Assembly (NCBI GenBank): GCA_949282265.1 | Contig: CASDOZ010000002.1 | Span: 124,001-188,000 of the forward strand | Length of the DNA stretch: 64,000 nt | Direction: 5' to 3' | Source: an uncultured Bacteroidales bacterium | GTDB taxonomy: Bacteria; Bacteroidota; Bacteroidia; Bacteroidales; Paludibacteraceae | In this document: in pieces, positions 31,570 to 37,154 of the stretch | Layout: each line of letters opens with the position of its first letter | Position numbering within the stretch: the first letter of the stretch is position 1 | Translations under genes and position numbers: made by a program | Notes under the pieces: generated by a model | Told to the model about the DNA's origin: nothing | The model's database searches: none | The model's input: the letters and a program-made list of their open reading frames with translations, nothing else

Positions 31570-33720
31570 ATGGAAAAGACCATTTACACCACAACGGGAA
31601 CGTTGTACAGGCATTTGAAAAAAACTCACCCGAATATATTGTCGAAAGACGACATGGTTTTCCTGCGCACGCATGTCATCACGGACACGGAAACATTATA
31701 CGGCAAGCTCTCCATCGTAGAAATCATTCTGGACGAAATCGGGCTGGGACGTACGGCCGTATTGAGCGTGCTGCTGGATGACGAGGTAAAAAGCGAACGG
31801 TTGACACTGGAAGAGATAGAAAAACATTTTGACGTTTCTATCAGCACGGTTATCAAAGGATTGGGACGCGCCAAAGAACTCTACAACCGCAATGCGGCCA
31901 TAGAAACGGAGAATTTCCGCAAACTCCTGCTGACCTTCGCGGAAGACGTGCGCGTCATCCTGATCATGCTTGCCGAGCGCCTGCACCAGATGCGCTACCT
32001 GCAAAAGCTGCCCGATGAAGAGCAACGGCAAGCCGTGGCACGGGAAACCGCTTTCCTATACGCGCCATTAGCACACCGTATGGGATTGTACGCCATCAAA
32101 ACTGAACTGGAAGACTTGTCGCTCAAATATACAAACCACGAAATATACAAGAACATCGCCCAGAAACTTAGTGAAACCAAACGGCACAGGGATGCTTACA
32201 TTGAGGCGTTCATCAAGCCATTAAAGGAAAAACTGGAATCGCTCGGCTTCAAATTTGAAATCAAAGGGCGCACAAAGTCCATTCATTCCATTTACAACAA
32301 AATAAAAAAGCAAAACACCGAATTCGAGAACATATACGACTTGTTCGCCATACGCATCATTTTGGACAGCGAACTGGAAAAAGAGAAAGCCGAATGCTGG
32401 CAGGTTTATTCCATTATTGCCGACATGTACCAGCCCAACCCGAACCGGTTGCGCGACTGGCTGACCATACCGAAGTCAAACGGATATGAAAGCCTGCACA
32501 CCACCGTGCTCGGCCCGGAAAACAAATGGGTAGAAGTGCAAATACGCACCAAACGCATGGATGAGATTGCGGAAAAAGGTCTGGCGGCACATTGGAAATA
32601 TAAAGGCATTAAAAGCGAAACCGGCATGGATGAATGGTTGAAAAACATTCGGGAAATTTTGGAAAATCCCGAACTGAACGCCGTTGATTTCATGGACGAA
32701 TTCAAGCTCAACCTGTACGACAAGGAAGTTTTTGTGTTCACGCCCAACGGCGATTTGCACAAGCTGCCCAAAGGCGCGACCGCGTTGGATTTCGCCTTTG
32801 CCATACATTCCGGCTTGGGCGCAAAATGTGTCGGCGCAAAAGTGAACGGCAAAAACCAATCCATCAAATACATCCTGAAAAACGGCGACCAGGTCGAAGT
32901 GCTGACCGCGCCATCGCAGAAGCCCAACGCATCGTGGCTGCAAATCGTCACCACATCGAAAGCCAAAAGCAAAATCAGGCAGGCACTGAAAGAAATCGAG
33001 TTCAAAGATGCGGAAGTCGGCCGCGAGGCACTGGTACGCCGTTTCAAGAACTGGAAAATAGAACTGGACGATGGCAAATTGTCGCGGCTGGCGAAAAAAA
33101 TGGGTTACAAAGCCGTCAGCGATTTTTACCAGGAACTGGCACAAAACAAATTGGACATGCTCCAAATCCGCGATGCCTATTTGGACCTCGACAAGAAGGA
33201 AACACCAGCCGACACACAGGAACTGCGCAGTGCGGAAAACTTCACACAACAGCTTGACGCACATTCCGATGAGGATGTACTCGTGATAGACAAAAATCTG
33301 AAAAACGTGGATTACAAGCTGGCCAAATGTTGCAATCCGATTTACGGCGACCCTATTTTCGGGTTTGTCAGCGTATCGGGCGGCATCAAAATCCACAGGC
33401 AAGACTGCCCGAACGCCCCGCAAATGATTGCCCGTTTCGGCTACCGCATCGTGAACGCACGCTGGTCGGGCAAACCCGTCGGCGCACGCTATCCGATTAC
33501 CTTGCGAATTGTCGGACACGATGACATTGGAATCGTAACAAACGTTACGTCCATCATTTCAAAGGAGCAGAACATCATGCTGCGTTCCATTTCCATTGAC
33601 TCGAACGACGGATTGTTCCAAGGGCATTTGACAGTCATGCTGACCGACACCCACGAACTGGAAGGATTAATCAAAAAATTGAAAACCGTCAAAGGCGTCA
33701 AGTCCGTTGAACGGGTCTGA
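31570..33720 (+). CDS. RelA-type (p)ppGpp synthetase with degenerate hydrolase domain
   Basis: The 716-residue protein has the long RSH layout. The N-terminal HD domain (about 25-190) has lost its metal ligands: LLHD is LLDD (69-71), the following VVED is EVKS, LADR..N is LAER..Q (134-140), and the HP motif is KL (46-47). The synthetase domain (about 215-345) keeps GRTKSIHSIYNK, IYDLFAIRI and SNGYESLHTTV. A TGS domain follows (FVFTPNGDLHKLPKGATALD). A zinc-finger-like region has KCCNPI and HRQDC, and a C-terminal ACT domain covers about 640-716. It should make (p)ppGpp on amino acid starvation but not degrade it, so a separate hydrolase is expected elsewhere. Confidence 0.88.
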   Translation: MEKTIYTTTGTLYRHLKKTHPNILSKDDMVFLRTHVITDTETLYGKLSIVEIILDEIGLGRTAVLSVLLDDEVKSERLTLEEIEKHFDVSISTVIKGLGRAKELYNRNAAIETENFRKLLLTFAEDVRVILIMLAERLHQMRYLQKLPDEEQRQAVARETAFLYAPLAHRMGLYAIKTELEDLSLKYTNHEIYKNIAQKLSETKRHRDAYIEAFIKPLKEKLESLGFKFEIKGRTKSIHSIYNKIKKQNTEFENIYDLFAIRIILDSELEKEKAECWQVYSIIADMYQPNPNRLRDWLTIPKSNGYESLHTTVLGPENKWVEVQIRTKRMDEIAEKGLAAHWKYKGIKSETGMDEWLKNIREILENPELNAVDFMDEFKLNLYDKEVFVFTPNGDLHKLPKGATALDFAFAIHSGLGAKCVGAKVNGKNQSIKYILKNGDQVEVLTAPSQKPNASWLQIVTTSKAKSKIRQALKEIEFKDAEVGREALVRRFKNWKIELDDGKLSRLAKKMGYKAVSDFYQELAQNKLDMLQIRDAYLDLDKKETPADTQELRSAENFTQQLDAHSDEDVLVIDKNLKNVDYKLAKCCNPIYGDPIFGFVSVSGGIKIHRQDCPNAPQMIARFGYRIVNARWSGKPVGARYPITLRIVGHDDIGIVTNVTSIISKEQNIMLRSISIDSNDGLFQGHLTVMLTDTHELEGLIKKLKTVKGVKSVERV

Positions 33721-33785: not shown

Positions 33786-33816
33786 TTGGCTGATAAAAAA
33801 AATAGTTTTATCTTTG
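33786..33816 (+). promoter_or_regulatory. promoter of the aromatic amino acid operon
   Basis: TTG (33786-33788), 20 bases, then TATCTTTG (33809-33816). Transcription should begin near 33822, about 17 bases before the leader peptide. Confidence 0.85.
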
Positions 33817-33838
33817 CAGCGATTTAAGCAAAAAAGTT

Positions 33839-33892
33839 ATGAATTGGAAGTTTTACGCATATTATTTCTTTTACTTTTACTTTAAACAGTAA
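33839..33892 (+). CDS. Phe/Tyr-rich attenuator leader peptide
   Basis: The 17-residue reading frame is MNWKFYAYYFFYFYFKQ, with five Phe, five Tyr and one Trp. It sits between a full promoter and a transcription terminator, ahead of genes for phenylalanine and tyrosine synthesis. This is the textbook form of a leader peptide whose translation speed reports charged tRNA-Phe and tRNA-Tyr. Its stop codon (33890-33892) directly touches the 5' strand of the proposed antiterminator (33893-33900), so a ribosome that reaches the stop would cover that strand. The frame is too short for ordinary gene calling. Translation itself is inferred. Confidence 0.92.
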   Translation: MNWKFYAYYFFYFYFKQ

Positions 33893-33976
33893 GAGCAGGA
33901 AACAATATGTCGTAAGTTTATAGAGATATTACATTATTGGAAAATCCTGCTCGAAATAATTGAGCAGGATTTTTTA
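33893..33976 (+). promoter_or_regulatory. attenuator: mutually exclusive antiterminator and terminator
   Basis: Terminator: AATCCTGCTC (33943-33952) pairs with GAGCAGGATT (33962-33971), followed by seven T (33970-33976). The same GAGCAGGA occurs at 33893-33900 and can pair instead with TCCTGCTC (33945-33952), which would destroy the terminator. A ribosome stalled at Phe/Tyr codons leaves 33893-33900 free and the operon is read. A ribosome at the stop codon masks it and transcription ends. Confidence 0.92.
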
Positions 33977-33998
33977 TTAAAGCAGACCGAAAAAAAAT

Positions 33999-34835
33999 AT
34001 GAAAACCGTTGCCATACAAGGCGTATGCGGGGCTTTCCATGAAATTGCCGCCCGCAACTATTTCCGGAACGAGGAAATAGATATTTTACCGTGCGATACA
34101 TTCAAGGATGTATTTGAAGCCATGCGCAAAGATGGAAATTTGTTGGGCATTGTTGCCATAGAAAACACCATTGCCGGCAGCTTGCTCCAAAACCATATTT
34201 TGCTCAACGATAGCAGATTATGTATCGTAGGCGAATACAAACTGCGTATTTCCCATTGCCTTGCCGCACTGAAAGGGCAGCAACTAAGCGACATTTCCGA
34301 GGTGCATTCCCACCCTATCGCACTGATGCAATGCGAAGAATTTCTGGACAGGCACAAAGAGTTGAAAGCCGTCGAAAGCCTCGATACGGCACTGTCTGCA
34401 AAAGAAATCGCCGAGCAACGTATCATGGGGCGCGCGGCCATTTGCAGCACGCTGGCCGCACAAATGTACGACCTGCAAATCCTGGAAGATGGCATAGAAA
34501 CGAACAAACGCAATTTTACACGCTTCCTGATTTTGTCGGACAAATGGAATGCCGATGAACTGCTGCGCAGCAAAACCATCAACAAAGCGACGCTGAGTTT
34601 CACCCTGCCGCACGAAGAAGGCAGCTTGGCCAAGGTCCTGTCCATTTTGTCGTTCTACCATCTGAACCTGACCAAAATACAATCCTTGCCGATTATCGGA
34701 CGCGAATGGGAATATCAGTTCTACATCACAGTCAATTTTGACAATTACACCCGTTACCGGCAAGGAATCGATGCCGTAACTCCCTTGTTGAAAGACATGA
34801 AAATATTGGGCGAATACGAAGCCTTCGTCAGCTAA
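33999..34835 (+). CDS. pheA: prephenate dehydratase
   Basis: The 278-residue protein is a stand-alone dehydratase without a fused chorismate mutase. It starts VAIQGVCGAFHEIAARNYF and contains ENTIAGSLLQNH (near residue 53), HSHPIALMQCEEF and the conserved Thr-Arg-Phe in NFTRFLIL (near 171). A C-terminal ACT domain (about 190-278, LPHEEGSLAKVLSILSFY) should bind phenylalanine for feedback inhibition. It converts prephenate to phenylpyruvate. It is first in the attenuated operon; the mutase activity is supplied by the third gene. Confidence 0.94.
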   Translation: MKTVAIQGVCGAFHEIAARNYFRNEEIDILPCDTFKDVFEAMRKDGNLLGIVAIENTIAGSLLQNHILLNDSRLCIVGEYKLRISHCLAALKGQQLSDISEVHSHPIALMQCEEFLDRHKELKAVESLDTALSAKEIAEQRIMGRAAICSTLAAQMYDLQILEDGIETNKRNFTRFLILSDKWNADELLRSKTINKATLSFTLPHEEGSLAKVLSILSFYHLNLTKIQSLPIIGREWEYQFYITVNFDNYTRYRQGIDAVTPLLKDMKILGEYEAFVS

Positions 34836-34863: not shown

Positions 34864-36033
34864 ATGAACATAGTACCAGCAACCCGATTGGAAAGCGTTT
34901 CAGAATATTATTTTTCAAAAAAACTGAAAGAAGTCGCGGCCATGAACGCCGATGGCTTAGACGTTATCAGCTTAGGCATCGGAAGTCCAGACATGCCGCC
35001 ATCGGCAGAAACGCTGCACACACTTTGCACAGAGGCCGTAAAACCCGATGTGCATGGCTATCAGCCCTATGTAGGCATTCCCGAATTGCGCCAGGCATTT
35101 GCCGATTGGTATAAAAAATGGTATGGCGTGACCCTTGACCCGAAAACGGAAATACAGCCGCTCATCGGTTCCAAGGAAGGTATCCTGCATGTTACACTGG
35201 CATTTGTCAATCCCGGCGACAGCGTCCTGGTTCCCAACCCCGGCTATCCGACCTATACATCGCTCAGCAGACTGTTAGGCGCCAACATCATCAATTACAA
35301 TTTACGCGAGGAGAATGGCTGGCTGCCCGATTTCGATGAACTGGAACGCATGGACACAAGCCATGTAAAATTGATGTGGACAAACTATCCGAACATGCCG
35401 ACCGGCGCAAATGCGAGCCCGGAGTTGTATGCACGTTTAGTTGATTTCGCACGGCGGAAAAACATCGTCATCGTCAACGACAACCCGTACAGCTTTATCC
35501 TGAATGACCATCCTATCAGCATCCTGGCTGTTCCCGGCGCAAAAGAATGCTGCATAGAGTTCAACTCCATGAGCAAAAGCCACAACATGCCCGGCTGGCG
35601 TGTCGGTATGCTGGCAAGCAACGCGCAGTTCGTGCAATGGATTCTGAAAGTGAAAAGCAATATAGACAGCGGCATGTTCCGGCCGGTGCAACTGGCCGCC
35701 GCAAAAGCCCTTGAAGCAGAAAAAGACTGGTACGAAGGCAACAACGCCAACTACCGCAACCGCCGCAAACTGGCGGAAGAAGTCATGGATTTATTGGGTT
35801 GCACCTACGACCCGCGGCAAACGGGCATGTTCCTGTGGGGAAAAATCCCCGACAAGTACAAATGCGTGGAAGACCTGACGGAAAAAGTCCTGCACGAAGC
35901 ACATGTCTTTATCGTGCCCGGATTTATTTTCGGTAGCAACGGCGAACGCTTCGTCCGGATTTCGCTTTGTGCCAAAGATGACAAATTGCAGGCAGCCCGG
36001 GAACGCATACGCAAAATGATTGAAAACAGCTGA
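34864..36033 (+). CDS. class I/II aminotransferase, probable aromatic amino acid transaminase
   Basis: The 389-residue PLP enzyme has ISLGIGSPDMPPS near residue 35, GYQPYVGIPELR near 66, NYPNMPTGA near 177 and the PLP Lys in SMSKSHNMPGWRVG near 240. The overall pattern resembles the LL-diaminopimelate/aromatic transaminase group. Its place between prephenate dehydratase and DAHP synthase-chorismate mutase under a Phe/Tyr attenuator argues for making Phe and Tyr from their keto acids. An LL-diaminopimelate role cannot be excluded from sequence alone. Confidence 0.85.
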   Translation: MNIVPATRLESVSEYYFSKKLKEVAAMNADGLDVISLGIGSPDMPPSAETLHTLCTEAVKPDVHGYQPYVGIPELRQAFADWYKKWYGVTLDPKTEIQPLIGSKEGILHVTLAFVNPGDSVLVPNPGYPTYTSLSRLLGANIINYNLREENGWLPDFDELERMDTSHVKLMWTNYPNMPTGANASPELYARLVDFARRKNIVIVNDNPYSFILNDHPISILAVPGAKECCIEFNSMSKSHNMPGWRVGMLASNAQFVQWILKVKSNIDSGMFRPVQLAAAKALEAEKDWYEGNNANYRNRRKLAEEVMDLLGCTYDPRQTGMFLWGKIPDKYKCVEDLTEKVLHEAHVFIVPGFIFGSNGERFVRISLCAKDDKLQAARERIRKMIENS

Positions 36034-36095: not shown

Positions 36096-37154
36096 ATGGA
36101 TTTTGAACCTATTTCATTGCCGGATGTTCCGGCCAAAAGGCCTATCGTCATAGCAGGGCCCTGCAGTGCAGAAACCGAAGAGCAAGTCATGAACACGGCA
36201 CGCAGCTTGTCGCGCCACGGTATTAAAATTTTCAGAGCGGGCATTTGGAAACCGCGCACCAAACCGGGCGGATTTGAAGGTGTCGGCGCGGAAGGCCTGC
36301 CGTGGCTCAAACGTGTCAAGGAAGAACTCGGCATGTATGTCGCCACCGAAGTGGCCACCTCCAAACATGTCCGCGAGGCTTTGGCCAACGATGTGGACAT
36401 TCTGTGGATAGGCGCACGCACATCGGCCAATCCGTTTGCCATGCAGGAGATAGCCGATGCACTGGAAGGCACCGACATTCCCGTCATGATTAAAAATCCC
36501 GTAAATCCGGACCTGGAACTGTGGATAGGCGCCATTGAACGCATCTACAACGCCGGCGTGCACCGCATTGCCGCCATTCACCGCGGATTCAGCACGTATG
36601 ACAAAAAAATATACCGCAACCTGCCGCAATGGCATATTCCCATCGAACTGAAAAGGCGTTTGCCGAGCCTGCCGATATTCTGCGACCCGAGCCATATCGG
36701 CGGGAAACGCGAACTGGTCGGGCCGTTGTGCCAGCAAGCAATGGACCTGAACTTCGACGGCTTGATGGTGGAAAGCCACTGCAACCCGGAAAAAGCATGG
36801 AGCGATGCATCACAACAGGTTACGCCCGATGTCCTGGACTTCATTCTGGATACATTAATTATACGCGATATGAAGCAAAGTACGGAAAGCCTTGAGCAAC
36901 TGCGCAAACAAATAGATGTATGCGATAACGATTTACTGGAATTGCTGGCAAAACGTATGCGCATTTCCGAAGAAATCGGACAGTACAAAAAGGAACACAA
37001 CATGCCCATTCTGCAAAGCGCACGTTATGAAGAAATTCTGAGCAAACGCATTTTCCAAGCCAAATCAATGGGCATGGGCGAAGACTTCATGAAGACAGTG
37101 CTGGTTGCCATACACGAGGAATCAGTAAGGCACCAAATGGAAATCATGAAATAG
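36096..37154 (+). CDS. bifunctional DAHP synthase-chorismate mutase
   Basis: The 352-residue protein joins two domains. Residues 1-250 are a type I-beta DAHP synthase: IAGPCSAETEEQ near residue 16, RAGIWKPRTKPGGFEG near 47, and FCDPSHIGG near 205. Residues 255-352 are an AroQ-type chorismate mutase (LEQLRKQIDVCDNDLLELL, KRMRISEEIGQYK). The enzyme performs the first step of the shikimate pathway and the step from chorismate to prephenate. Fusion lets prephenate or chorismate feed back on the synthase in related enzymes. The usual gene symbol varies (aroF/aroG/aroA), so none is given. No tyrA follows; a terminator does. Confidence 0.93.
   Translation: MDFEPISLPDVPAKRPIVIAGPCSAETEEQVMNTARSLSRHGIKIFRAGIWKPRTKPGGFEGVGAEGLPWLKRVKEELGMYVATEVATSKHVREALANDVDILWIGARTSANPFAMQEIADALEGTDIPVMIKNPVNPDLELWIGAIERIYNAGVHRIAAIHRGFSTYDKKIYRNLPQWHIPIELKRRLPSLPIFCDPSHIGGKRELVGPLCQQAMDLNFDGLMVESHCNPEKAWSDASQQVTPDVLDFILDTLIIRDMKQSTESLEQLRKQIDVCDNDLLELLAKRMRISEEIGQYKKEHNMPILQSARYEEILSKRIFQAKSMGMGEDFMKTVLVAIHEESVRHQMEIMK

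Follow-up and report, generated by a model that had tools for sequence, protein, structure and literature searches.

A probable four-strand Phe/Tyr attenuator ahead of pheA in Bacteroidales

The leader that precedes pheA in this uncultured Bacteroidales bacterium very probably works as a ribosome-mediated transcription attenuator of four strands, with charged tRNA-Phe and tRNA-Tyr as its signals. The case is made from its anatomy, its conservation, the covariation of three helices and the match to a model of the ribosome footprint, all of them computed here. (The window, as the term is used below, is the whole stretch of DNA that was analysed, 64,000 nucleotides in length.)

The proposed mode of action can be outlined as follows. 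When Phe and Tyr are both ample, the ribosome would get to the last codons and the stop of the leader and cover strand A (33893-33900); strand B (33945-33952) would then pair with strand C (33962-33969), and RNA polymerase would terminate ahead of pheA. When either amino acid is scarce, the ribosome would stall at one of the ten Phe/Tyr codons, opening the 1:2 hairpin and freeing strand A, which would pair with B before C exists; the consequence would be read-through into pheA, the aminotransferase and the DAHP synthase-chorismate mutase. If no ribosome is on the leader, the 1:2 hairpin would occupy A, and termination would be favoured in the window leader. In such a scheme the leader would be translated, RNA polymerase would pause, A:B would outlast the moment of decision, and read-through would respond to the supply of Phe and Tyr.

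Anatomy of the leader and of the presumed operon

The features are collected in Table 1. The 17-residue leader with its ten Phe/Tyr codons (5 Phe and 5 Tyr) that the initial annotation described can be read directly at 33839-33892, from its ATG (33839-33841) to its TAA (33890-33892). It was also said there that an antiterminator strand adjoins the leader stop and that the terminator is built from the identical octamer: both are true of the window, where GAGCAGGA abuts the stop and recurs at 33962-33969, pairs there with TCCTGCTC and is followed by a T run. The window has a single copy of the three-octamer arrangement, and 0 of 100 dinucleotide shuffles contain one. When both strands of the window were scanned for ATG ORFs of 9-35 codons, enriched in a single amino acid group and with a terminator-like hairpin after them, the pheA leader was the sole match. 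As to the promoter, likewise claimed beforehand, TATCTTTG fits TAnnTTTG, the -7 consensus of the Bacteroidota, and 82 of 94 leaders have a box of this type no more than 60 nt from their start, as against 3.6% of shuffles.

Table 1. Features of the pheA leader and of the genes that follow it (window coordinates)
Feature	Position	Strand	Basis
-33-like upstream element, TTGG (less certain than the -7 box)	33786-33789	+	sequence
-7 promoter box TATCTTTG (TAnnTTTG type)	33809..33816	+	sequence; box enrichment in orthologous leaders
Leader ORF MNWKFYAYYFFYFYFKQ*, ten Phe/Tyr codons	33839..33892	+	sequence, orthologous leaders, codon pattern
Strand 1: leader codons forming the 5' side of the predicted 1:2 hairpin (33853-33863, 33865-33870, 33874-33881)	33853..33881	+	fold, covariation
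Strand 2: 3' side of the predicted 1:2 hairpin; includes strand A	33888..33915	+	fold, covariation
Antiterminator strand A, GAGCAGGA	33893..33900	+	sequence, A:B covariation
Intrinsic terminator: 17 predicted pairs, 5-nt loop, U run	33938..33976	+	folds, B:C pairing
Strand B, TCCTGCTC: partner of A (antiterminator) or C (terminator)	33945..33952	+	covariation, shuffle test
Strand C, GAGCAGGA	33962..33969	+	covariation, shuffle test
pheA, prephenate dehydratase (Phe branch)	33999..34835	+	PF00800
Class I/II aminotransferase, second gene of the presumed operon (shared steps)	34864..36033	+	PF00155
DAHP synthase-chorismate mutase fusion (shared steps), third in the presumed operon	36096..37154	+	PF00793, PF01817

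The gene next to the attenuator, prephenate dehydratase, makes one of the amino acids that would be sensed. The further claim that the switch controls the synthesis of both amino acids stands in part: genes of the Phe branch and of the shared steps are in the presumed operon, whereas the Tyr-specific enzyme, prephenate dehydrogenase, has its one match in the genome (89% complete) on another contig (C15), outside the pheA operon. Directly upstream of the leader, on the same strand, is a gene of the RelA/SpoT family (31570-33720).

Leaders ahead of pheA in related genomes

The initial annotation proposed a comparison of orthologous pheA leaders. It finds a Phe/Tyr leader upstream of pheA at 101 of 102 loci (94 with ATG starts, 7 with GTG), many of these loci being close relatives and therefore not 102 independent cases. 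(A word on the sample: 61 genomes were searched for PheA loci, 36 had a match and 30 loci were taken, to which the best 80 of 133 from the genome collection were added; the resulting 110 became 102 with the removal of 2 that had too little upstream sequence and of 6 repeats. To be counted as a leader, an ATG ORF of at most 60 codons had to have at least 7 Phe/Tyr per 12 codons and lie at most 450 nt from pheA; GTG starts were checked for the remainder.) With ATG starts, the same search yields a leader in 0 of 559 other window segments and in 2 of 510 shuffles. Only L074 is without a leader within that distance; by eye, an open frame appears to extend to pheA there. A terminator-like hairpin is present in all 104 leader rows.

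The runs are mixed, with a mean of 5.9 Phe to 3.9 Tyr codons per leader. Their third positions are all but uniform, 630 of 632 TTN/TAN codons ending in T or C, a pyrimidine signature that is favoured by the choice of leaders for Phe/Tyr. Stops are found in the +1 frame in 72 of 75 leaders and in the +2 frame in 63 of 75.

A drawing from the phylum (395 genomes, 338 with a PheA match) extends the picture. Leaders with ATG, GTG or TTG starts are found in 67 of 74 genomes of the same class outside the order and in 3 of 26 genomes outside the class. The 100 upstream stretches fetched for this count came from two groups: of the 85 genomes of the class that lie outside the order, 74 were taken, 11 with weak PheA matches being left out; the other 26 stretches are from genomes outside the class in the upper part of the matches listed, where several more were skipped. 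In the 70 leaders from these genomes (67 same-class and 3 others), complementarity of A to B exceeds that of shuffles in 62 (p <=0.05, 100 shuffles each), the score with the leader's own partner being 20.7 as against 14.2 with swapped partners.

A covariance model of the element, R1, reached E 0.001 in 55 of the 395 genomes under stricter filters. Of 29 new loci found with it, 26 precede a PheA-like ORF (by position or by eye), 1 precedes prephenate dehydrogenase and 2 precede neither. On the present genome R1 has one clear site, at E 8.9e-15, the next match being at E 0.024; the open frames around four weaker matches in this genome (E >=0.024) include, by eye, no amino-acid biosynthesis gene. 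At the prephenate dehydrogenase locus, which is outside the class (L142:535-1416, minus strand), the gene is preceded by a Tyr/Phe-rich leader and a terminator; this is possibly a Tyr-branch version of the attenuator.

A terminated leader RNA would also be expected from a constitutive terminator that happens to follow a chance Phe/Tyr ORF, or from a small RNA gene ending ahead of pheA. Either is quite improbable in the face of a leader retained at nearly every locus and in most of the genomes sampled elsewhere in the class, of a hairpin in each of the 104 leader rows, of A:B complementarity beyond that of shuffles and of the one clear R1 site in the genome.

Competing helices and the position of the ribosome

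Helices were scored over an alignment (A1) of 63 of 80 non-redundant leaders. Its hand exclusions, 5 second tandem leaders and twelve that were divergent, had their start set wrongly or left strand A unclear (L011, L012, L013, L029, L030, L031, L060, L066, L073, L079, L086 and L097), make the helix counts lean towards window-like leaders. For A:B, 90.4% of cells are paired, with 54 both-side changes and a covariation score of 0.314 (0.194 shuffled, at most 0.102 slid); for B:C the corresponding values are 97.3%, 97 and 0.456 (0.263 shuffled, at most 0.170 slid). The change from GAGCAGGA/TCCTGCTC to GAGCGGGA/TCCCGCTC is an example of compensation. Since strand B is common to both, the two helices are mutually exclusive. 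Conserved leaders together with a covarying antiterminator and terminator make the earlier designation of this region as a Phe/Tyr ribosome-mediated attenuator appear sound. If the leader peptide controlled translation rather than transcription, leader and pheA would be on one transcript; that is highly improbable, because an intrinsic terminator with a U run lies between them and is the most strongly covarying helix of all.

How many strands does the switch use? "Only three", according to the initial annotation; that count does not hold, for a fourth strand (33853-33881) is predicted to pair with 33888-33915. Folded as far as 33925, the leader RNA of the window reaches -22.3 kcal/mol, beating 200 of 200 shuffles (z -3.44), with strand A inside the hairpin. 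The predicted pairs join 33853-33863 to 33904-33915 around one bulged U, 33865-33870 to 33897-33902 and 33874-33881 to 33888-33895; further out, 33837-33844 is also predicted to pair with 33916-33923. Over the 63 leaders the base of this 1:2 hairpin covaries (75.3% of cells paired, 47 both-side changes, score 0.239 as against 0.177 shuffled), part of the signal being due to composition, as indicated by the best slid score (0.183, at -2) and by the quarter of cells that are unpaired. Variants of the base helix in relatives include ACATAC/GTATGT, GCATAT/ATATGC and, in L064, GCCTAT/ATAGGC. The apex is 93.1% paired and scores 0.245 as against 0.217 shuffled, mostly through one-side changes. A hairpin that takes up A and has a covarying base argues for a classical four-strand attenuator.

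The 1:2 hairpin overlaps the antiterminator strand in the predicted fold of the window and is not uniform among relatives. Only 23 of the 63 leaders have a 1:2 duplex energy that surpasses that of 95% of shuffles, and when strands 1 and 2 are compared without gaps the margin is modest (19.1 for own strands, 16.3 swapped, 15.6 for shuffles). The best strand 1 helices begin in leader codons in most loci; in others, L011, L012 and L020 among them, the segment after A finds its best partner in the 5' UTR, ahead of the leader ATG. Leader codons also pair with a conserved GTAAG ahead of A, even in leaders such as L015 and L022 where it is not an in-frame stop. Pairing of 1 with 2 would account for the keeping both of GTAAG and of a non-aromatic Thr/Ala codon in the run.

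The position of the ribosome was modelled with a footprint reaching from 12 nt before to 15 nt after the first base of the P site (the dimensions of the E. coli ribosome) and an assumed transcript start at 33822, the RNA being folded at the moment when B has been transcribed and C has not. In this model the switching point of the window leader falls precisely between its last Phe codon and the codon that follows. With the ribosomal A site at codon 3, A:B has 7.1 of its 8 bp; at codon 4, 7.9; at codons 5-14, 7.9-8.0; and at Phe15, 6.8. At Lys16, Gln17 and the stop, it has 0.0. Without a ribosome A:B has 0.5 bp, A being held in 1:2. Once C has been transcribed, the terminator is predicted at equilibrium in every state (with a stalled ribosome, A:B 0.0 and B:C 11.8), so that the switch must be decided kinetically, as is assumed for attenuators generally.

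The model was extended to 74 non-redundant leaders, the window's included and L079 left out. A ribosome stalled at Phe/Tyr codons leaves A:B above 0.7 in 71 of them and a ribosome at the stop codon brings it below 0.2 in 67; placing the footprint edge at +13 or +17 leaves these counts unchanged. In the remaining 7, Bacteroides types included, the ribosome at the stop codon fails to suppress A:B, the stop being at least 24 nt past A, and such leaders must achieve the covering in another way, possibly through timing. (In L072, L088, L091 and L100 the stop is 24 nt past A and the gap to B is longer, 56-64 nt.) Only 24 leaders have A:B below 0.3 in the absence of a ribosome, which means that sequestering by 1:2 is not general at equilibrium; compared with that state, a stall adds more than 0.1 to A:B in no more than 38 of the 74.

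It is from these figures that a minimal attenuator of A, B and C, lacking a working 1:2 hairpin, draws what appeal it has: A:B stands at 0.3 or more without a ribosome in 50 of the 74 leaders, where 1:2 is accordingly not holding A, and no helix is better supported than A:B and B:C. Against it are the window fold, which no shuffle matched and which takes up A, the covarying base and the pairing of GTAAG with leader codons even where it does not serve as the in-frame stop. A switch of three strands is therefore unlikely. For the window itself it was rejected in view of the predicted 1:2 hairpin.

What is kept among the leaders is a distance. From the first nucleotide of the last Phe/Tyr codon to A there is a median of 13 nt (sd 1.7), and 72 of 75 leaders fall within 11-16 nt, as against an sd of 10.1 nt for the distance from the stop to A (n=75). 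In the wider class A is usually inside the leader ORF, so that an antiterminator touching the stop is a local arrangement, what is retained being the spacing to the last sensing codon. Spans of 34-39 nt obtained there appear to stem from a mistaken choice of the last Phe/Tyr codon in leaders with two clusters. We lean, if only slightly, towards a class-wide Bacteroidia Phe/Tyr attenuator with a ruler: strand A about 11-16 nt past the last Phe/Tyr codon, at the reach of a stalled ribosome, the stop and strand 1 being free to move, and the whole built twice in series, within a single transcript, in several lineages.

Such series, two Phe/Tyr leaders each with a terminator-like hairpin, are found at 10 Bacteroidales loci (L008, L020, L044, L045, L065, L069, L084, L092, L093 and L109), which amount to a handful of lineages, since L065, L084, L092 and L093 are near-copies of L020, and L045 is one of L044. 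In the 9 tandems that were re-examined, a -7 box precedes the first leader and none precedes the second. In L044 and L069 the second terminator has a low score. Two leaders are also present in 3 of 3 genomes of family f36 (L196, L200 and L222), with no -7 box for either leader; the first terminator of L222 is weak. A tandem leader of another kind, that of Salmonella mgtCBR, serves two different signals. The mgtCBR attenuators resemble the present tandems, as far as the accessible part of PMC3641672 goes, in having two short ORFs in one leader and in acting by attenuation, and differ from them in the gene controlled and in that both leaders of the Bacteroidia tandems are Phe/Tyr-rich.

Kindred systems and biological meaning

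Leaders of amino-acid genes can also bind tRNA directly: T-box targets in Firmicutes include such genes. That the present region is a tRNA-binding (T-box) element or a leader known to Rfam is barely conceivable: neither scanning the window against Rfam nor scanning the leader at a relaxed threshold gave a family at cut-off, RF01859 and T-box included. Nothing in the region attained its gathering score, and at the relaxed threshold Phe_leader (RF01859) came to 16.2 bits, where 55 are required, with no T-box listed.

The nearest models are the enterobacterial leaders of pheA (RF01859) and trp, the classical four-strand ribosome-mediated attenuators. Like them, the window leader encodes a short peptide in which the regulated amino acids abound, is predicted to form three hairpins (1:2, antiterminator and terminator) and precedes a biosynthetic gene; unlike them, it falls far below the RF01859 threshold, mixes its Phe and Tyr codons, and belongs to another promoter type and phylum. 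Element by element, the window offers: 1) a short ORF, presumably translated, with clustered codons for the products; 2) an antiterminator and an intrinsic terminator that, from their sequences, would exclude each other; 3) a predicted 1:2 hairpin, not uniform in relatives, that may serve for pausing and protection; 4) in the footprint model, an antiterminator strand that is exposed by a stall and hidden by completion of the peptide, before C is made; and 5) a location before genes that make a sensed amino acid.

The initial annotation knew of no described Phe/Tyr attenuator in this phylum, a statement that holds only in part. For Flavobacterium psychrophilum, PMC9723704 gives strong clues to attenuation by leader peptides ahead of amino-acid operons and reports, before pheA, a 5' element conserved across Flavobacteriaceae: the same phylum, the same gene and attenuation suggested. 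The accessible part of that paper confines the element to Flavobacteriaceae, names no Phe/Tyr peptide or alternative hairpins and does not spell out a Phe/Tyr mechanism, and to that extent the statement stands. With Phe/Tyr leaders in the class at large, the Flavobacteriaceae element and the present leader are probably one and the same. PMC7366714, whose accessible part does not name pheA, mentions sORFs resembling leaders in long 5' UTRs of Bacteroides thetaiotaomicron. In another phylum, the uORFC-13-1 motif before Acholeplasma aroF is a proposed Phe-codon attenuator of an aromatic pathway gene, characterized, in what is accessible of PMC8632094, by at least 1 Phe codon and not by a mixed Phe/Tyr run. 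Among the literature matches listed, with subscription papers mostly outside their scope, there is no description of a Phe/Tyr attenuator in Bacteroidales.

If the reading as a four-strand attenuator is right, much of the class Bacteroidia, with its gut and environmental members, would control Phe and shared aromatic synthesis through the position of a ribosome on a leader peptide. The ribosome and RNA polymerase would then run close together in this phylum, which makes weak use of Shine-Dalgarno sequences. The natural variants, with their moved stops and tandem copies, make the geometry of attenuation directly testable.
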